NCBI GenBank assembly: GCA_903910585.1
Contig: CAIWAH010000150.1
Location: 1 to 64,000, forward strand
Length of the DNA stretch: 64,000 nucleotides
Origin: an uncultured Verrucomicrobiota bacterium
Lineage (GTDB): Bacteria > Verrucomicrobiota > Verrucomicrobiia > Limisphaerales > UBA9464
Direction: 5' to 3'
A program made the position numbers and the translations under genes. A model generated the notes under the pieces. The model did not search any database and had not been told where the DNA came from. It saw nothing but the letters and a program-made list of their open reading frames with translations. Of this stretch, positions 28,285-36,917 are shown piece by piece; within the stretch, counting starts at the first letter, position 1; each line of letters opens with the position of its first letter.

Positions 28285-29475
28285 TTAAGGCGAAGGCACC
28301 AGAATCGGCCGGAATCCAAATGCATTGCTCTCCGGCGGCAGAGTGTTCGGTTCCCAATAGATAAGTTCATAACCGGCCGGTTTGACCCCATAAAACCCGC
28401 CCCGCAGGATCCGAAAAGTATCCGTGCCCGAATCAACCCATTCCCGGGCATTCCCAACCATGTCGAAGAGGCCCCATGCGTTGGGAAGTTTGCTGCGAAC
28501 GACAAAGGTCGTCGACAGGACTGCGTCCCAACCCACCCAAGCATAACTGCCCATCATACCTGCATCGTCTCCCCAGTAATAGGCAGTCCGGGTTGCTGCC
28601 CGTGCAGCATACTCCCACTCCTCGCTGGTGGGCAGACGGTAGGAATATCCTGATGGCAGGAGGCCCCCGGCTCGGTCCAGCACGGTCCGGGTCTGGCAGT
28701 AGGTGGTGGCCTCCTTGAAATTGACGCGTTCCACTGGACGCATGCCGACCGGCGACAATCCCGGAAGATTGGTCCACGTAATCGGGGTGGTAAACCAACT
28801 CGGGTTGAACCCCATCACCGCGACGAACTCGTCCTGAGTGGTTTCATGGTCACTCATCCAGAACCCCGCCTGGTTGGTCAGCGTGCCGTTGATCCCCGGA
28901 GGGATCCACACGAAGCCCTGTGGCCGAACACCGGGTGGTTCACCGGCCGCCCCGCAGGGGCAAACACCGCCATCCACCGCCCGGTAAAACCGCGGCGTGT
29001 CACCAATCTCCAAATCCACCACCTTCACGCCCTCGCCGCCGCCAAGGACGTTGGTGAACAGGTTCCAGACCGCGTCCGTGCCCAGTTGGCCGGCCCATTC
29101 GACGCGAGCCACGTTACCCGCCTGGCCCCGGATGGTGATCTGCGGCACCAACCGGACCGACGTGGTCCATGGTTGCGGAGGCGGCTCAATGACCACGGTC
29201 GGGGCATTTGTGTAGCCGCTGCCGGCGGTCAAGACGATGATTGCGGACACGACGTCCCCGGAAAGAAAGGACCTGGCAGTGGCGCCATTTCCCCCGCCGC
29301 CCACGAGGGCGACCTCTGGCGCCCGCTGGTAGCCACTTCCTCCGAAGGTAAGGGTGACGCCCGTGACGAATCCCTGATTGACGGTTGCCACCGCAGCGGC
29401 GGGAAACGGATCGGCGTGGGTCGGGAAAAGCCAAGCGAAGCACACCGTAACGGCAAACATGACCCGGGCGAACAT
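28285..29475 (-). CDS. Secreted SUMF1/FGE-fold protein with Gly-rich GSGYTNAP repeats
   Basis: 396 residues from the ATG at 29473-29475, which begins a signal peptide (MFARVMFAVTVCFAWLFPTHA). Residues about 30-95 contain two GSGYxxAPxV repeats with GGGGNGA, a module frequent in verrucomicrobial surface proteins. The C-terminal 215 residues are a formylglycine-generating-enzyme-like domain: MSDHETTQDEFVAVMG, RPVERVNFKEA, YRLPTSEEWEYAA, MVGNAREWV and RILRGGFYG. The two active-site Cys of true FGE are not seen, so a binding role is more likely than sulfatase activation. Confidence 0.82.
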   Translation of the reverse strand: MFARVMFAVTVCFAWLFPTHADPFPAAAVATVNQGFVTGVTLTFGGSGYQRAPEVALVGGGGNGATARSFLSGDVVSAIIVLTAGSGYTNAPTVVIEPPPQPWTTSVRLVPQITIRGQAGNVARVEWAGQLGTDAVWNLFTNVLGGGEGVKVVDLEIGDTPRFYRAVDGGVCPCGAAGEPPGVRPQGFVWIPPGINGTLTNQAGFWMSDHETTQDEFVAVMGFNPSWFTTPITWTNLPGLSPVGMRPVERVNFKEATTYCQTRTVLDRAGGLLPSGYSYRLPTSEEWEYAARAATRTAYYWGDDAGMMGSYAWVGWDAVLSTTFVVRSKLPNAWGLFDMVGNAREWVDSGTDTFRILRGGFYGVKPAGYELIYWEPNTLPPESNAFGFRPILVPSP

Positions 29476-29628
29476 CAAGCCCAATAGACCTTTTCTCAAC
29501 GGCCTTTCAACCGCTTTTCCAGCCACAAACACCACCCCCGATTCAGATCGACATTCGTTGAACGCAGGACATCGACGTGCCTGCAGTGCGACCTTGCGCC
29601 GGTGTCATCACGATGGATTCATCGCCCG

Positions 29629-31056
29629 GTGAACTTCCTTCGTCCCGCCCTTGCCGGCTGCTGCCTGACCGTGGCCTTGGCTGCCGAGTCCCACTGGCCC
29701 CAGTTTCGCGGCCCCGGCGGTCTGGGCGTGGCGGACGAGTCCGCCCAACCGCCGGTGCGGTTTGATCCCGCCACCAACGTGGCCTGGCGGATCGCCAGCC
29801 CAGCCGGAAACTCTTCACCGATCATCTGGGGCGACCGGCTTTTCCTCACCGGCCTGGCCGACGGCAAGTTGCTGACCCTCGCCTATGACCGCACCACGGG
29901 ACGCGAACTGTGGCGTCAGGCCGTCACGCCGGAGAAGCTTGAGGAAGTGCATCCGGCCTTGGGCCATCCGGCGACCGCGACGCCCGCGACGGACGGCGAA
30001 CGGGTCTATGTCCACTTCGGGTCGTTCGGCCTGCTCGCCTACGATTTCACCGGCCGCGAGGTGTGGCGGCAGCCGATGAAGCTCACGCAGACCGAATACG
30101 GCGCAAGTTCCTCGCCCATCCTCGCCGGTGAAAACGTGATCCAGTTGCTCGATCAGGATGGCGATTCCCATCTCGTCGCCCTCGACCGGCGCACCGGCAA
30201 GGTAGCGTGGCGCGTGGACCGCCCGGAGATGCGGCGCGGATTCGGCACGCCGATCCTGTGGAACCACGACGGGGCGACCGATCTGGTTGTGCCCGGCACG
30301 CTCTGGCTCCGCGGACTTGATCCGGCCACCGGTGCCGAACGCTGGCAGGTCAGCGGCCTCGCGCGCATCACCTGCACGTCGCCGGTGGCGGGCGACGGTT
30401 TGCTCCTGGCCGCCAGCTGGACCACCGGAGGCGACCTTGGCCCCAGCCATCTGCTGATGCCGAAGTTCGACGAAGTGCTCGCCGCGAACGACGCGGACAA
30501 GGACGGCCGGTTCACGTTCGCCGAACTGCCGCCCGGACCGGCGAAGGAGCGGTTCAAACACCTGGACGGCAACCGCAACGGCTTCGTCGAACGTGCGGAA
30601 TGGGAGACCATGGCCGACATCTTCGCCCGCGTGGAGAACCAGGCCTTCGCGGTGAAGCCCGACGCCCAGGGCCGGGTCTCCGACGCCGGCGTGCTCTGGC
30701 GTTTCAAGAAGGGCCTGCCCTATGTCGGATCGCCGCTCCTTTACCGCGGGCGTTTCTATCAGGTGAAGGACGGCGGCATGCTGACCTGCCTGGACCCGAA
30801 AACCGGTCAGGCCCTTTACCAGGAAGAACGCCTGGGACCGATCGGCCCCTACTACGCCAGCCTGCTGGGCGCCGCCGGGCGGATCTATGTCACGTCGCAA
30901 CGCGGCACGGTGGTCGTCGTGCGGGCCGGCGACACCCTGGAAATTCTCGCGCGCAATGAGCTCGGCGAAACGGCTCAGGCCAGTCCCGCGGCGGTGGGCG
31001 ACACGCTGTTCGTGCGGACGGCGGAACACTTGGCGGCGTTCCGGGACCGCCGCTGA
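29629..31056 (+). CDS. PQQ-like beta-propeller protein with EF-hand insert
   Basis: 475 residues from the GTG at 29629, which gives a better signal peptide (NFLRPALAGCCLTVALAAE) than the GTG at 29602. SHWPQFRGPGGLGVADE is the standard start of this verrucomicrobial/planctomycetal propeller family. Blade motifs DRTTGRELWRQ, DRRTGKVAWRV and DPKTGQALYQE are visible. At about residues 295-345 there is an EF-hand pair (DADKDGRFTFAE, LDGNRNGFVERAE) inserted in the propeller. Probably periplasmic; enzymatic activity with PQQ not indicated. Confidence 0.85.
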   Translation: MNFLRPALAGCCLTVALAAESHWPQFRGPGGLGVADESAQPPVRFDPATNVAWRIASPAGNSSPIIWGDRLFLTGLADGKLLTLAYDRTTGRELWRQAVTPEKLEEVHPALGHPATATPATDGERVYVHFGSFGLLAYDFTGREVWRQPMKLTQTEYGASSSPILAGENVIQLLDQDGDSHLVALDRRTGKVAWRVDRPEMRRGFGTPILWNHDGATDLVVPGTLWLRGLDPATGAERWQVSGLARITCTSPVAGDGLLLAASWTTGGDLGPSHLLMPKFDEVLAANDADKDGRFTFAELPPGPAKERFKHLDGNRNGFVERAEWETMADIFARVENQAFAVKPDAQGRVSDAGVLWRFKKGLPYVGSPLLYRGRFYQVKDGGMLTCLDPKTGQALYQEERLGPIGPYYASLLGAAGRIYVTSQRGTVVVVRAGDTLEILARNELGETAQASPAAVGDTLFVRTAEHLAAFRDRR

Positions 31057-31079: not shown

Positions 31080-32045
31080 TCACGCCCGGGTGGTCGTTCC
31101 CTGACAATCGGCACTTTTGGGCGGAACCTGCAGCAGTCGCTGGCCCATGCGCACGCGGCAGCCCGTGGCGATGCCCGGGCAGAGCTTGAAGCCGCGCGGA
31201 GCGAACATGATGATGGTCGAGCCGTGTTCAAACCAGCCGAGTTCCTGACCACGTCCGACCGGATGATCGCAGGGGATTTCATTGGGGCCGTTCCAGCGCA
31301 GATGCAGGAGCACGTCGAGAAAGTGCAGCCGGATGCTGGCGACCAGAATGGCGGCAACCGCGACCAACGCCACCGGATACCCGGCTCTGAGGCGCATCCT
31401 CAACACCGCGCGTTCGTTCCGGCAAAAAAGCCTTTCAACGCGGCGCAATGCGATCGGGTTGACGTTCCAGGTGTCGCCGCTGATGTAGGTGACATGTTCC
31501 ACCGTCGCATCGTCCGGCGCATGAAACCGGTGATACATGTCCGAAGTCAGCCGCAGCGTGACGTAGCAGCCGTCCTCAAACGGTGCCGCGGCCGCCGCGC
31601 TGCCGAACAGGTCGGCCAACGAATAGGGAAAGCCCTTTGCCTGAAATACGCCCAGACCGCGAACCTCCCCCGCCTCCCCGATGATGCCGTCGCAGGGACT
31701 GACGAGAACGTCACCCGCCGCCTCGATGGGCCGGGAGCCTGGCCTGAGTTCACGGGTGAAGCATTCGTGAAGGCTGCCAAATCGGGAGTGGCGGGCATCG
31801 CTCAGGTCGAGGTCAGTGAACAGCCGCCAGGCCGCGAGCGAGGCCTTGACCACGTAGCGGTTGCGAATCCGGCTGAACCTCCCCATCAGGCGGGTCGCAA
31901 GCAGGCGGGGCAGGCGGTTGGTGACGAGGAAATTGAGGTTCTCCTGAAGCAGCAAACGGTCCCGCCAGCTCCGCAGGCGGGAACGGTGGGTGTCCGAAAG
32001 TTTGACGGACGGGCGAAAGCGGAGATTTCGTTTCGGTTTTCTCAT
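31080..32045 (-). CDS. Phosphatidylserine decarboxylase-like protein
   Basis: 321 residues. The Psd family is supported by SPCDGIIG (Asp119), SDMYHRFHAP (His residues 172-175), SGDTWNVNPIALRRVERLFCRN and the self-cleavage site region. The cleavage motif reads HGST (274-277) in place of the common LGST. Psd is made as a proenzyme that cleaves between Gly and Ser to form a pyruvoyl group and decarboxylates phosphatidylserine to PE. The start codon shares CATG with the divergent aminotransferase gene. The conserved N-terminal segment ENLNFLVTNRLPR requires a start close to this one. Confidence 0.88.
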   Translation of the reverse strand: MRKPKRNLRFRPSVKLSDTHRSRLRSWRDRLLLQENLNFLVTNRLPRLLATRLMGRFSRIRNRYVVKASLAAWRLFTDLDLSDARHSRFGSLHECFTRELRPGSRPIEAAGDVLVSPCDGIIGEAGEVRGLGVFQAKGFPYSLADLFGSAAAAAPFEDGCYVTLRLTSDMYHRFHAPDDATVEHVTYISGDTWNVNPIALRRVERLFCRNERAVLRMRLRAGYPVALVAVAAILVASIRLHFLDVLLHLRWNGPNEIPCDHPVGRGQELGWFEHGSTIIMFAPRGFKLCPGIATGCRVRMGQRLLQVPPKSADCQGTTTRA

Positions 32046-33699
32046 GACTAATCCATGGCTGACATCACTGCTGGTGCTTGCTCCCGCGGCGGTCGTGGCG
32101 CACCTCGTCCGCCGCCGCCTTCAGCTTTCGCTGGCCAAACACCCCTCGCTCACCGGCCACGTCCGGATGGCGAAGCGCGTCGCCGGCTGGCTGCCGGGGT
32201 ATTCGTATGACGAGGAGAGGTTCTTCGCCGCCGATCAGGCACCGGGGGAGGTTGTGGCCCGGCGTCGGGAAGGTTTCCGGCGGCTGGCGGTTCATTTCGC
32301 CGGCCGGCATTCCAAATCCATAGCGCTGTCGGCGGCTGCCGCCGCGCGAATCTCCGACCTGCAGTTCACCCGAACCTACCGGGTGCCATTCCCCTTCAGC
32401 CGTCATTTGCGGGAAAATCTCAAACTCGGCGGCTTCGTCGCGGCGAGTTCGGGCGTCACCCTCACGGACCTCGACGGCCAGACCGGATACGACTTGGGCG
32501 GGGCCTACGGCGTCAACGTCTTCGGCTACGACTTCTACAAGGAATGCATGGCGGAAGCAGCCACCCGCGCGGCCGCGCTGGGGCCGGTGCTGGGGCCGCT
32601 CCATCCGTGCGCGGCCTGGAACGCGGAGCGCCTGTGTCAGATTTCGGGCAAGGACGAGGTCTCCTTCCACATGTCCGGCACGGAGGCGGTGATGCAGGCC
32701 GTGCGGTTGGCGCGCTATCATACCCGTCGCCGCCATCTGGTGCGCTTCTGTGGCGCCTATCACGGATGGTGGGACGATGTGCAGCCGGGGCCGGGAAATC
32801 CAATGCCCGCGGCCCACACCTACACGCTCAAGGAAATGGATGCCGCGACCCTGCGGGTGCTCCGGACACGCCGCGACATCGCCTGCGTCCTCGTGAATCC
32901 GCTGCAGGCGCTGCACTCGAATCTCCCGGCCCCGGGAGATTCGTCCCTCGTGGACGGCAGCCGACGGGCCGGATTTGACCGCGACGCCTACACCCGCTGG
33001 TTGCGGCAGCTCCGTGAGGTCTGCAGCGACCGCGGGATCGTGCTGATTTTCGACGAGGTGTTCCTCGGCTTCCGCCTCGCTCCGGGAGGCGCCCAGGAAT
33101 ATTTCGGCGTCCAGGCCGACCTCGTCACTTATGGCAAAACGTTGGGGGGCGGCTTGCCCGTGGGTGTGGTCTGTGGGCGCCGGGACCTGATGAAACGGTT
33201 TCGCGAGCAACGCCCCGCCGACCTCTGCTTCGCCCGCGGGACCTTCAATTCCCATCCCCTCGTGATGGCCGCAATGCAGGTTTTCCTCGAACGCCTGGAG
33301 ACGCCCCAAATCCGGTCGGTCTACGACGGGCTCGAAGAACGCTGGAATGGCCGGGCGGCCGAACTCAACCGGTGCCTGACCGAGGCCCAACTGCCCGTGC
33401 GGGTTGCCAACCTGTCCTCGGTCTGGACGGTCACCTACGAGGTGCCTTCCCGCTACAACTGGATGTTTCAGTTCTACCTCCGCGCCGAGGGGCTTGTCCT
33501 GAGCTGGGTTGGCAGCGGCCGTTTCATCTTCAGTCTGAACTACTCCGAGGCGGATTTCGCGGAGGTGGCGGCCCGGTTTGTCCGGGCCGCCAAGGCCATG
33601 CGCGAGGACGCCTGGTGGTGGCATCCGCCCGGCATCACCAACCGGGATATCCGCCGAAGCATGCTTGGGGAGGCGTTCCGGCACCTGCGGGGGAACTAG
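32044..33699 (+). CDS. Membrane-anchored class III PLP-dependent aminotransferase
   Basis: 551 residues. An N-terminal hydrophobic anchor (about 5-22, LTSLLVLAPAAVVAHLV) and a 100-residue leader precede a class III aminotransferase domain. This has SGTEAVMQAVRLAR (phosphate binding), AYHGWW, IFDEVFLGFR (Asp337) and VTYGKTLGGGLPVG with the PLP Lys365. Nearest relatives by motif are glutamate-1-semialdehyde aminotransferase-like enzymes, but the membrane anchor and neighbours argue for a lipid or amino-lipid substrate. It is flanked by and shares codons with its neighbours: start CATG with psd, stop CTAG with the Mpo1-like gene. A GTG start at 31990 is possible. Confidence 0.82.
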   Translation: MTNPWLTSLLVLAPAAVVAHLVRRRLQLSLAKHPSLTGHVRMAKRVAGWLPGYSYDEERFFAADQAPGEVVARRREGFRRLAVHFAGRHSKSIALSAAAAARISDLQFTRTYRVPFPFSRHLRENLKLGGFVAASSGVTLTDLDGQTGYDLGGAYGVNVFGYDFYKECMAEAATRAAALGPVLGPLHPCAAWNAERLCQISGKDEVSFHMSGTEAVMQAVRLARYHTRRRHLVRFCGAYHGWWDDVQPGPGNPMPAAHTYTLKEMDAATLRVLRTRRDIACVLVNPLQALHSNLPAPGDSSLVDGSRRAGFDRDAYTRWLRQLREVCSDRGIVLIFDEVFLGFRLAPGGAQEYFGVQADLVTYGKTLGGGLPVGVVCGRRDLMKRFREQRPADLCFARGTFNSHPLVMAAMQVFLERLETPQIRSVYDGLEERWNGRAAELNRCLTEAQLPVRVANLSSVWTVTYEVPSRYNWMFQFYLRAEGLVLSWVGSGRFIFSLNYSEADFAEVAARFVRAAKAMREDAWWWHPPGITNRDIRRSMLGEAFRHLRGN

Positions 33700-34316
33700 T
33701 GGCCGGGGGCCTGGGTGTGCACATGCAGCATCGGGTCGAGCAGCTCGCCCCGGAGCAGCGCCAGTGGCGAACGCCAGTAGAGCATGATGTCATGGAACGG
33801 ATCCGTGACGATTTTCAGCATCCAGATGAGGCCGGTCATCACGTCCTTCAGGAAGAAGAGATGCACCGTCCGGAATACGAGCCCGCCCAGGCCGATCCAG
33901 AGCCAGGCCATGCCGACCTGGTGAAGGTATTCGCCGAGTCCGGAAGCGGGGGTCAGCGCCCCCCACAGGGAAGGGCTCAGCAACAGCAGCACCGGGGCCG
34001 CCGCCCAGATGGACATCAGCACCACCTTCCGCCGGAGATTGTAGCCCAGCTTGATGTCCTCCTTGTGCTCGTGGGTCGCCTGATTGACGCGGTCGAACCC
34101 GCGGGGCTCGAAGAAGAAATGCCCCGCCTGACGGGTGGTCATTGAAATGCCCCAGGCAATGAGTGCCGAGATGGCGGGATCAAGGAACAGGAAGACGTAG
34201 GCGACCAGAAAGCTGACCGCGCTGACGAAGTGCAAAGCCTGGTTGATCCGGCTTTGATGATAATAGCGATGGTCATCCCAGCGCTGGATTCGGAGGGCTT
34301 CTAGATAGGGTTTCAT
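33696..34316 (-). CDS. Mpo1/DUF962-like His-rich membrane protein
   Basis: 206 residues from the ATG at 34314-34316. Four or so hydrophobic helices. DDHRYYHQSRINQALHF near the N-terminus, with RQAGHFFFEPRGFD and a THEHKEDIKLG stretch, resembles the conserved His pattern of the DUF962/Mpo1 family, whose yeast member is an iron dioxygenase acting on 2-hydroxy fatty acids. Assignment is by motif only and other His-rich membrane oxygenases are possible. Its stop codon overlaps that of the convergent aminotransferase (CTAG). Confidence 0.6.
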   Translation of the reverse strand: MKPYLEALRIQRWDDHRYYHQSRINQALHFVSAVSFLVAYVFLFLDPAISALIAWGISMTTRQAGHFFFEPRGFDRVNQATHEHKEDIKLGYNLRRKVVLMSIWAAAPVLLLLSPSLWGALTPASGLGEYLHQVGMAWLWIGLGGLVFRTVHLFFLKDVMTGLIWMLKIVTDPFHDIMLYWRSPLALLRGELLDPMLHVHTQAPGH

Positions 34317-34476
34317 GTGGTGGAGGGCCGTGGGTGGCTCAGCAATGTGGTCGGCGACCCGAGGCGCCTCAATTCTGGATGTTCCTGTGTGAAGCACTGA
34401 TGGCGGATGCGTTTCGATACCGGAATATCAGAAGATCGCCACGGGGTCGTCGCCAACCCGCGGCAACTGTCCCGAC

Positions 34477-35736
34477 ATGGAGATTCCAAGTCGCTCCGAC
34501 GGACAAGCCGGCCCCGAAGGACGATCCGCGCTCCGCCTCGCCGTGGTGACCGAAACTTACCCGCCGGAGATCAACGGGGTTGCCATGACCGTCGCCCGCC
34601 TGGTTCAGGGCCTGTGTGCCCGCGGGCACACCGTCCAGTTGGTCCGGCCACGTCAGCACGCCAAAGACGTGGCGAACCGAACCCACGGCTGCACCGAACT
34701 GCTGACCCGCGGGCTGCCGATTCCCCGATATCCGGAACTCAAAGTCGGACTCCCTGCGGGGCGCGCCCTGGAAAAGGCGTGGGCGGATTTCCGCCCGGAC
34801 GCAGTTCAGGTCGCAACCGAAGGTCCGCTGGGCTATTCGGCGGTGCAAATCGCCCGGCGGCTGGGAGTGCCGGTGGTCTCGGAGTTTCGGACCAATTTCC
34901 ACGCCTACAGCCGCCACTACGGCATTGGCTTCCTGCGCCGGCCCATCCTGTCCTACCTGCGCGGATTCCATAACCGCACCGCGTGCACCATGGTGCCGAC
35001 CGCCAAGCTAGCCGCGGAACTCGCCGCCGAGGGGTTTGAGCGCCTGCGGGTCGTGGGGCGGGGGGTGGAAACGTCCCGCTTTCATCCCGGCCGCCGCTGC
35101 GCCGCCCTTCGCCGGCAGTGGAATGTGCCGGACGAAACCCCCGCGGTGATCGCCGTCGGCCGGCTTGCACCGGAGAAAAACCTCGACCTGCTGCTCGCCG
35201 CCTTCGCCCGGATCAAGCTCCGCCAACCCGGAGCCCGGCTGGTGATCGTCGGCGATGGCCCGGCGCGCGCCTCGTTGCAGGCCCGCTGTCCCGACGCAGT
35301 GTTCGCCGGCCGCCGCTATGGGGAAGATCTCGCGAACCATTACGCCTCCGCCGACCTGATGCTGTTTCCCAGCCTGACCGAGACGTTTGGCAACGTCACA
35401 CTGGAGGCCATGGCCAGCGGCCTGGGGGTGGTGGCATTTGACTACGGCGCGGCTGGTGAACACATCCGCACCGGCGAAAACGGCTGGACCGCGCCATGGG
35501 GAGACCATGAGGAATTCATGCGGTTGGCCGCCGCCGCCGTGGCGGATTTCACGTTGATCCGGCAACGTGGCCAGGCCGCCCGGGAAACCGCTCAAAAGAT
35601 GGGCTGGGACCAGATTGTAACCCAGGTCGAATCGCACCACCGGGCAGCAATGCAGTCGGCTCGACCCGCCGGGCGCCCACACCTCGCCGCGGGTTCGGAA
35701 ATCGAGGTCGAGTGGGCGCCAGCAACCGAGCCGTGA
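34477..35736 (+). CDS. Glycosyltransferase family 4 (MgtA/mannosyltransferase-like)
   Basis: 419 residues, GT-B fold. The N-terminal nucleotide-independent domain begins LRLAVVTETYPPEINGVAMT, followed by FRTNFHAYSRHYG. The C-terminal donor domain has AVGRLAPEKNLDLLLAAF, VIVGDGPARA and the EX7E motif within SLTETFGNVTLEAMASG. Most similar in pattern to GDP-mannose or UDP-sugar transferases that build glycolipids. It begins about 160 bases from the divergent Mpo1-like gene, consistent with a membrane-lipid function. Confidence 0.85.
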   Translation: MEIPSRSDGQAGPEGRSALRLAVVTETYPPEINGVAMTVARLVQGLCARGHTVQLVRPRQHAKDVANRTHGCTELLTRGLPIPRYPELKVGLPAGRALEKAWADFRPDAVQVATEGPLGYSAVQIARRLGVPVVSEFRTNFHAYSRHYGIGFLRRPILSYLRGFHNRTACTMVPTAKLAAELAAEGFERLRVVGRGVETSRFHPGRRCAALRRQWNVPDETPAVIAVGRLAPEKNLDLLLAAFARIKLRQPGARLVIVGDGPARASLQARCPDAVFAGRRYGEDLANHYASADLMLFPSLTETFGNVTLEAMASGLGVVAFDYGAAGEHIRTGENGWTAPWGDHEEFMRLAAAAVADFTLIRQRGQAARETAQKMGWDQIVTQVESHHRAAMQSARPAGRPHLAAGSEIEVEWAPATEP

Positions 35737-35894: not shown

Positions 35895-36755
35895 TCACAC
35901 CACAGCCACGCGGTTCACGAGTTCGCCGATGCCGGAGATGCGGATGCGCACCACATCACCGACGGCGAGAGTGAACTCGTTCGCCGGCACCACGCCGGTG
36001 CCGGTCAGCAGCACGGCGCCCTGCGGAAAGGTCTGCGAGCGATGCAGCCAGCCGGCCAGTTCGTCGAAGCTGCGCTTGATCTGGCCGACGCCGGTTTCGC
36101 CGCTGAACACCGCGGCGCCATCGCGCTCGATCTGCACGCCAATGGTCCATTCCCGCGCTGCGGTTTCGCTCACACCGACGGTGATGAACGGTCCCAGCGC
36201 GCAGGACGCGCGATAGGTCTTCGCCTGCGGCAGGTAGAGCAGGTTCTCGCCCTCGATGTCGCGCGAGCTCATGTCGTTGCCGATCGTGTAGCCGACCCGT
36301 TCGCCGCGGCGGTTGAAGACGAGTGCGAGTTCAGGTTCGGGCACGTTCCACTTCGCGTCGGCGCGGATGCCGACGTCGCCGCCGGTGGCGACCGTCTTTT
36401 CGCCGAGCGACTTGAAGAAAATCTCCGGCCGCGGGGCGTCATACACGCGGTCGTAGGCTGTGGCGCTGAAGTCCGATTCCTCCATGCGGGCCTTCTTGCT
36501 GCGCAGATAGGTCACGCCGGCGGCCCAGACTTCCTGCTGCTCGACCGGCGAGAGCAGGGTGACTTCGGAAAGCTTCAGGTGCCGGGCTGGCGCCGTGGCC
36601 AGCGACTGGAGCCGGGCAACCAGATCGGGCGAATCCAGCAAGGTGGTGAGGCAGTCCACCCCGACCGACGACAGGTCAACCAAAGTGTCCGCGGTAGCCA
36701 GCAGACCGATGCAGGGCCAGGGACGGTGGGCAGAACGGAAACGGCAGAGCTTCAT
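35895..36755 (-). CDS. Fumarylacetoacetate hydrolase-family protein
   Basis: 286 residues from MKLCRFRSAHRPWP. The FAH fold shows in IFFKSLGEKTVATGGDVGIR, the metal-binding Glu pair in WNVPEPELALVFN, IGNDMSSRDIEGENLLYLPQ and LLTGTGVVPANEFTLAVGDVV. Members hydrolyse or dehydrate 2-keto-3-deoxy sugar acids and other beta-diketo acids. A role in sugar-acid breakdown fits other genes in the window but is not proven. It is separated from DUF971 by 162 bases on the same strand. Confidence 0.85.
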   Translation of the reverse strand: MKLCRFRSAHRPWPCIGLLATADTLVDLSSVGVDCLTTLLDSPDLVARLQSLATAPARHLKLSEVTLLSPVEQQEVWAAGVTYLRSKKARMEESDFSATAYDRVYDAPRPEIFFKSLGEKTVATGGDVGIRADAKWNVPEPELALVFNRRGERVGYTIGNDMSSRDIEGENLLYLPQAKTYRASCALGPFITVGVSETAAREWTIGVQIERDGAAVFSGETGVGQIKRSFDELAGWLHRSQTFPQGAVLLTGTGVVPANEFTLAVGDVVRIRISGIGELVNRVAVV

Positions 36756-36917
36756 GCGCCGGAGGTTGCCGAGGGCGGGGGCGGAAGGGAAGTCCGGGCG
36801 GGCCGCCGCGAAAGTGCTGCCGGTTTCCAACTGGCAGACCCCGTGAATCGGAGCAGCCTTTCCACGGTGAACGCACGACGCGGGCTTCAGCTCTGGCCGG
36901 AGGCCACCACCCGTTTC

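Follow-up and report, generated by a model that had tools for sequence, protein, structure and literature searches.

We identified a four-gene cassette in the 64,000-nucleotide stretch of DNA analyzed here (the window), which comes from an uncultured Verrucomicrobiota bacterium, and we read it, at roughly two chances in three, as a horizontally transferred unit that remodels membrane lipids under phosphate limitation. Within this reading, conserved gene order, co-occurrence, gene fusion, Pho boxes in proteobacterial relatives, and horizontal spread were observed, and we infer the substrates and products of the cassette. Its features are as follows.

31080-32045, minus strand: psd paralogue of the cassette type, phosphatidylserine decarboxylase-like, 321 aa (PF02666, TIGR00163)
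32043-32046, no strand: CATG, the overlapping start codons of psd and the aminotransferase gene, with both ATGs inside
32044-33699, plus strand: AT, class III aminotransferase with a presumed membrane anchor, 551 aa (PF00202; PLP lysine K365)
32053-32136, plus strand: N-terminal helix of AT, residues 4-31, presumed membrane anchor (AlphaFold2 model)
33696-33699, no strand: CTAG, the overlapping stop codons of the AT and Mpo1-like genes, with both stops inside
33696-34316, minus strand: Mpo1/DUF962-like multi-helix membrane protein, 206 aa from the ATG at 34316 (PF06127 in relatives)
34317-34476, no strand: divergent intergenic region between the Mpo1-like and GT4 genes, where proteobacterial relatives carry the Pho box
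34411-34429, plus strand: GTTTCGATACCGGAATATC element, retained at many loci in the verrucomicrobial clade to which the window belongs and present once in the window's genome
34477-35736, plus strand: GT4 glycosyltransferase, candidate diacylglycerol glycosyltransferase, 419 aa (PF13439/PF00534)

The reading frames and the shared CATG and CTAG of the initial annotation agree with the sequence. Strands alternate across 31080-35736 (psd minus, AT plus, Mpo1-like minus, GT4 plus, as checked in the sequence), and an operon reading of the window's four genes was therefore rejected; a co-directional version of the cassette is present in one other locus (L127). Within the window's own verrucomicrobial clade, all 21 loci that could be tested keep the shared CATG start, versus 7 of 56 other loci, a conservation that exceeds chance; the 4-base shared stop of the AT and Mpo1-like genes is kept in 6 loci only. 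The conserved element GTTTCGATACCGRAATATC was rejected as a genome-wide operator because of its single occurrence in the window's genome.

Among 80 relatives retrieved from Verrucomicrobiota and Proteobacteria, distantly related bacteria of water and soil, nearly all share this four-gene order. The initial annotation had tied its proposal to gene order outside this genome, and conservation in 2 phyla leaves the proposal standing. Pairwise distances of the four cassette proteins correlate (r 0.57-0.85), and the block is far more constant than any neighboring Pho gene. Of 146 genomes in the bacterial order, AT and the Mpo1-like gene are both present in 7 and both absent from the rest, and in a divergent locus (L129) they are fused into one 738-aa ORF facing PlcP-BtaB-BtaA. 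Further, verrucomicrobial AT sequences nest within proteobacterial ones at three places, which indicates that the cassette spreads horizontally. As a cluster of four neighbors, the earlier description holds for gene order, but the genes are not co-directional and GT4 is separable from the psd, AT, and Mpo1-like trio, being absent from seven Zoogloea-type loci. PlcP is also missing in Zoogloea-type genomes, and the glycolipid part is thus optional.

Among the family assignments made earlier, those of Psd, the class III aminotransferase, and GT4 score above cut-offs, and that of the Mpo1-like protein falls short. The window Psd reaches 190.4 bits to PF02666 (cut-off 22) and 146.6 to TIGR00163 (cut-off 111.75) and shares with phosphatidylserine decarboxylases the catalytic D, the His of YHRFH, and the GST self-cleavage serine, as aligned with canonical Psd from the same genomes. 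However, the surroundings of the active site differ systematically from canonical Psd, with HGST instead of LGST and MYHRFH instead of DYHRIH throughout the cassette family, and GDTWNVNP for PGxLFSVNP. Identity to the canonical Psd proteins compared is 29-39%, and a second psd, distinct from the cassette copy, was present in 29 of 30 genomes. The cassette gene is a paralogue of the housekeeping psd by these comparisons, with a predicted phosphatidylserine (PS)-decarboxylating role. In genome G174, the cassette copy is the sole Psd found, so it can plausibly make phosphatidylethanolamine (PE). Two genomes (G260 and G266) have AT and the Mpo1-like protein without a cassette-type psd and with only the canonical one, which argues that Psd is no obligatory step.

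AT scores 111 bits to Aminotran_3 (PF00202), and K365, D337, and S211-G212-T213 are invariant in 41 relatives. Residues 4-31 form a predicted helix (AlphaFold2, mean pLDDT 84) with a conserved segment (R25, L28, S29, K32, and others) at its end, and the model thus supports the membrane anchor already proposed for AT. The nearest solved structure, by both sequence and fold, is the AMT domain of the mycosubtilin synthase MycA (PDB 6kfm), from which AT differs in being free-standing outside any megasynthase, in its N-terminal anchor, and in an additional conserved region roughly 100 residues long. Of the class III enzymes, MycA-AMT, beta-transaminases, and HemL are those nearest to AT. A heme role as HemL (glutamate-1-semialdehyde aminomutase) was rejected, as AT scores 171.6 bits to the equivalog TIGR00713, far under its cut-off of 527, and the gene context is lipid-related.

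The Mpo1-like protein of the window scores 21.5 bits to PF06127, under the Pfam gathering cut-off of 24; all 42 aligned relatives match this family at E<=0.1 and no other family consistently. It shares with yeast Mpo1, a 2-hydroxy fatty acid dioxygenase (PF06127/DUF962), the histidine region HxxxH...NQxLH...GHxxFE, but the match is confined to the N-terminal portion. H16, H20, H29, H66, and E70 are invariant, and the four histidines are candidate metal ligands by family name. The structure was modeled with a pLDDT of 91, and no solved relative was found in a PDB fold search with the model. The ORF can be extended to a GTG at 34397, but relatives start at an ATG equivalent to 34316, which is probably the start, the GTG lying too far upstream. 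Solo Mpo1-like genes were also seen on Bradyrhizobium plasmids and are uninformative on the cassette.

The GT4 domains of the window protein (PF13439/PF00534) score 67-113 bits. By analogy with Agt, this enzyme probably glycosylates diacylglycerol. In other loci, a different, Agt-type GT4, to which the cassette GT4 is only about 34% alike, fills the slot beside the trio, next to PlcP. Recurrent neighbors of the cassette include PlcP, BtaA/BtaB, PmtA, LplT, and polyphosphate or phosphate genes, with PPK, PhoU, and alkaline phosphatase genes clustering in the same islands. A PlcP homologue was identified in 7 of 12 Verrucomicrobiota with AT and 5 of 33 without (Fisher p 0.007), and BtaA in 6 of 12 and 3 of 33, respectively (Fisher p 0.006), both tests ignoring the relatedness of the genomes. 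Among 20 Proteobacteria with AT, 17 had PlcP and only 3 had BtaA; for this last reason, Psd acting on the diacylglyceryl-homoserine of BtaA was rejected as a general function. The window's genome harbors a PlcP homologue (matching the PlcP-like protein of locus L109 at E 3e-77) on a contig (C249) other than that of the cassette, and BtaA was not found in it. We infer the PlcP identity of these homologues from bta/agt context and a sub-cut-off LpxH-like score. In the lipid remodeling described in the literature, PlcP lies next to bta genes or agt together with Pho boxes (PMC4796936). The cassette shares with PlcP-Agt and PlcP-BtaA/B remodeling the Pho boxes of its proteobacterial copies, PlcP beside a GT4 or BtaA/BtaB, and diacylglycerol as presumed hub, but the trio is absent from the published contexts examined (PMC4796936, PMC9239053).

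Of the proteobacterial loci, 67% have a Pho box, called at a threshold of at least 11 of 14 matches, upstream of GT4 and 27% have one upstream of AT, against a background of about 1%. This enrichment occurs only at the canonical 11-bp repeat spacing, and permuted half-sites gave 2% on average. The signal in Verrucomicrobiota is weak or degenerate, with a degenerate form in half of the loci. No Pho box was recognizable in the window's own intergenic regions, and a verrucomicrobial version was rejected there because its weight matrix score (1.3 bits) was not above background. The phosphate-starvation link through Pho boxes, PlcP, and BtaA is new relative to the initial annotation. Against the remodeling reading stand this weak signal and its absence from the window, the off-contig PlcP and missing BtaA of the window's genome, the lack of GT4 and PlcP in Zoogloea-type genomes, the dispensability of the cassette psd, and the sub-cut-off Mpo1 membership.

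In the proposed mechanism, PlcP would cleave phospholipids to diacylglycerol, which GT4 would glycosylate. The membrane-anchored AT and the Mpo1-like protein, a putative iron-type oxygenase, would form one functional unit with a lipid as substrate, and the Psd paralogue would supply or decarboxylate an amino-acid-type intermediate. With these roles, the trio would make an amine-bearing, phosphate-sparing polar lipid, probably an undescribed one, by a putative chemistry. The chemistry that we favor, itself improbable taken alone, centers on an acid's alpha carbon, where all three trio families would act: the Mpo1-like protein would convert 2-hydroxy to 2-oxo, AT 2-oxo to 2-amino, and Psd the 2-amino acid to an amine, with the resulting lipid amine N-methylated by PmtA in alphaproteobacteria. 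The proximity of AT to beta-keto/beta-amino enzymes argues against it. The uncharacterized amino- or glycolipid pathway suggested earlier fits all the evidence, and its lipid product remains predicted.

Remodeling of the PE head group is an unlikely alternative, in which Psd converts PS to PE, AT then takes off or transfers the amine of ethanolamine, or else eliminates the head group, and the Mpo1-like protein oxidizes the resulting aldehyde, with phosphate then recovered from the lipid. Such an elimination is carried out on free phosphoethanolamine by ethanolamine-phosphate phospho-lyase, another class III enzyme. The intact Psd triad, the sole Psd of G174, the persistence of AT and the Mpo1-like protein with only canonical psd in G260 and G266, and PmtA, which acts on PE and adjoins the trio in Bradyrhizobium and Sphingomonas (in the latter named only as methyltransferase), are in line with it. 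However, the affinities of AT lie away from other class III enzymes, and PlcP, present in most of these genomes, already frees the head group. Those same affinities suit amination of a beta-keto acyl group by AT, as in mycosubtilin synthase, to give a beta-amino acyl lipid, with the Mpo1-like protein, whose family by its Pfam name acts on fatty acids, oxidizing a neighboring position and Psd and GT4 separate in the same regulon. We consider this somewhat less probable still, as the conserved block, across the neighborhoods of relatives, includes neither an acyl carrier protein nor a ketosynthase or acyltransferase.

Equally doubtful is shared regulation only, with all genes under Pho control but Psd, AT/Mpo1-like, and GT4 in separate pathways. 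The dispensability of GT4 and psd, each in some loci, and the phosphate genes of the same islands would fit, but the constancy of the block and the fusion and perfect co-occurrence of AT with the Mpo1-like protein speak for a joint role. That the cassette decorates lipid A or an envelope polysaccharide, and is no glycerolipid pathway, is very improbable: GT4 enzymes frequently act in LPS and exopolysaccharide, and UDP-glucose dehydrogenase is a neighbor in a few loci, but no LPS or capsule gene was conserved with the block in the neighborhoods of relatives, where PlcP, BtaA/B, PmtA, and LplT recur.

Phosphate-free lipids are a main bacterial way of coping with low phosphate. Several aminolipids of phosphate-limited cells have no assigned enzymes, and uncharacterized ones are listed in PMC4796936. 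No paper describing the cassette was found in the open-access literature searched, which does not prove that none exists. Returning to the remodeling reading, the trio may, at somewhat less than even odds, be an undescribed biosynthetic pathway whose products, phosphate-free amine lipids of a new class, stand in for PE or phosphatidylcholine across Proteobacteria and Verrucomicrobiota. The cassette is compact, mobile, and, judging from its proteobacterial copies, probably Pho-regulated, and it occurs in cultured strains (Variovorax soli NBRC 106424, Methyloversatilis thermotolerans 3T, Bradyrhizobium sp. SRS-191, and Zoogloea sp. LCSB751), thus offering named genes and a predicted trigger. If the trio does make a new aminolipid, a pathway would be added beside those of ornithine, glutamine, and betaine lipids.

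The initial annotation had proposed a compact lipid-modification cluster at 31080-35736 with overlapping start and stop codons, and the window sequence bore out its positions and strands for all four open reading frames, the CATG shared by psd and the membrane-anchored class III aminotransferase (AT), and the CTAG shared by AT and the Mpo1/DUF962-like (Mpo1-like) gene.

Features of the cassette in the window sequence
31080-32045, minus strand, psd
32045, minus strand, psd start codon
32044-33699, plus strand, AT
32044, plus strand, AT start codon
33696-33699, CTAG with the AT and Mpo1-like stop codons
34477-35736, plus strand, GT4 glycosyltransferase

Given these two start positions, one CATG contains both start codons. 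The strands alternate, psd (-), AT (+), Mpo1-like (-) and GT4 (+), as a convergent pair between two divergent pairs, which rules out an operon reading of the window cassette. The CATG containing both ATGs was identified in 21 of 21 testable loci of the window's clade versus 7 of 56 elsewhere, which makes it a trait of this clade; in most proteobacterial copies, intergenic sequence separates psd from AT instead, and the overlapping AT/Mpo1-like stop was not widely conserved. Immediately flanking the cassette (28285-31056 and 35895-36830) are genes for a protein with a sulfatase-modifying-factor domain, an EF-hand-bearing PQQ beta-propeller protein, and an FAA hydrolase, none with a lipid link.

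Pfam clearly supported Psd, the class III aminotransferase, and GT4. The Mpo1-like window protein matched weakly (21.5 bits against a cut-off of 24), all 42 aligned relatives matched the same family, and the histidines and GHxxFE were invariant; its true start is probably not the GTG at 34397, the conserved protein beginning at 34316. Its predicted structure was confident (pLDDT 91), with no fold match among solved structures. The nearest solved relatives of AT were the AMT domain of mycosubtilin synthase, beta-transaminases, and HemL. Around its active site, cassette Psd is distinct from the housekeeping enzyme, with catalytic residues retained, and it was an extra copy in 29 of 30 genomes, being the sole psd found in genome G174. 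The window genome has two more psd genes (G000:C143 and G000:C379), one adjoining a pssA-like gene (a housekeeping pair) and the other a HAD-like ORF.

Gene order outside the window genome had been named beforehand as a test. We searched one genome per species and found 387 AT relatives; among the best 80, which were fetched, nearly all sufficiently long loci had the same alternating order, spanning Verrucomicrobiota, many Betaproteobacteria (Zoogloea, Variovorax, Rubrivivax, Methyloversatilis, and others), and Bradyrhizobium. When ORFs were clustered, only the four cassette genes proved constant, with varying flanks, and pairwise distances of their proteins correlated (r 0.57-0.85). The AT family is rare and patchy, occurring in 7 of 146 genomes of the window's order (exactly those recovered with the Mpo1-like profile), 1 of 289 in the phylum sample (the window's own), 8 of 229 in the class of Variovorax and 3 of 289 in that of Bradyrhizobium (each including the centre genome), and on one Sphingomonas plasmid. 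In the AT tree, rooted by choice on locus L129, verrucomicrobial sequences fell within proteobacterial ones at three places, which makes transfer between the two phyla the simple reading. Several MAG titles, such as Klebsiella pneumoniae and Akkermansia muciniphila (loci L078, L043, L046, and others), conflict with the tree and flanking genes; L078 groups with verrucomicrobial L056, and record titles are unreliable taxonomy. In relatives from the window's order such as L013 and L014, open frames 1300-3900 codons long contain AT-like domains (30-37% identity) that are presumably the aminotransferase domains of PKS/NRPS proteins.

Seven Zoogloea-type loci with psd, AT, and Mpo1-like but no GT4, genomes G260 and G266 keeping AT and Mpo1-like without a cassette-type psd, and a single 738-aa ORF fusing AT with an Mpo1-like domain (L129:8007-10223, +) all point to AT and the Mpo1-like protein as the predicted functional unit, with Psd as a close partner and GT4 as an added glycolipid arm. 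In the Zoogloea-type loci, a glycine/cysteine-rich protein lacking any Pfam match (L097:12434-13249 and relatives) occupies GT4's place, and no strong PlcP match was found in three of three of their genomes. In L129 the fused gene diverges from PlcP-BtaB-BtaA, with an Agt-type GT4 and an alkaline-phosphatase-like gene close by. A 902-aa ORF in another locus (L127:9844-12552, +), co-directional with AT, psd, and Mpo1-like, resembles a fusion of a GT4 with a PHP-type metal hydrolase domain (domains assigned by eye). Lone Mpo1-like genes without AT nearby occur on Bradyrhizobium plasmids (L133:9001-9576, amid transposases, and similar).

A PlcP-like metallophosphoesterase gene was identified in 16 fetched loci, and some loci had BtaA (DUF3419) with BtaB, a GT28 diglucosyl-DAG-synthase-like protein, PmtA, UDP-glucose dehydrogenase, PhoU, polyphosphate kinase 2, alkaline phosphatase, or LplT, the last of which may merely mark a common chromosomal site. 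In Verrucomicrobiota, PlcP and BtaA were commoner in genomes with AT (7/12 and 6/12) than in those without (5/33 and 3/33); PlcP was present in 17 of 20 AT-bearing Proteobacteria tested, and genome G118 has BtaA, PlcP, and the cassette directly next to one another. Scanning the fetched loci for the Pho box consensus CTGTCAT-N4-CTGTCAT turned up 21 strong sites where about 3 were expected; many lay upstream of AT or GT4. In proteobacterial loci, a site of at least 11/14 lay within about 130 bp upstream of GT4 in 67% (background 1%) and upstream of AT in 27% (background 0.8%). The signal dropped at neighbouring spacings (to 0-14% for GT4) and averaged 2% with permuted half-sites, the single high permutation for AT being a register-shifted TGTCATC. 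With a weight matrix derived from the proteobacterial sites, verrucomicrobial loci had a mean score of 6.6 versus a background of 0.06, and half exceeded the 95th percentile. The window itself scored 1.3, so we can only infer phosphate regulation of the cassette in its organism. Between Mpo1-like and GT4, the window has GTTTCGATACCGGAATATC (34411-34429), which is kept in many clade loci and occurs once in the window genome. We read the cassette, with a probability of about 0.68, as a phosphate-limitation lipid-remodelling cassette.

Hydroxy acid oxygenases, amino/keto exchange enzymes, and amino acid decarboxylases all act at the alpha carbon of an acid. This common chemistry suggested a route, unlikely though it is, in which the Mpo1-like protein would oxidize a 2-hydroxy to a 2-oxo acid, AT would convert this to the 2-amino acid, and Psd would decarboxylate it to the amine. 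A PE head-group route for the same three proteins is likewise improbable, and a beta-amino acyl route more doubtful still; both match parts of the data as well as the alpha-carbon route does.

In the part of Sebastian et al. consulted, plcP that adjoins bta genes or agt and is accompanied by Pho boxes is the context of phosphate-starvation lipid remodelling (PMC4796936); psd, an aminotransferase, and an Mpo1-like gene go unmentioned there. The open-access literature searched contained no description of the cassette, the AT/Mpo1-like pairing, or the distinct Psd subfamily. Lipid remodelling in phosphate starvation is an already known process; the cassette, this pairing, and the Psd subfamily appear to be new within that literature.
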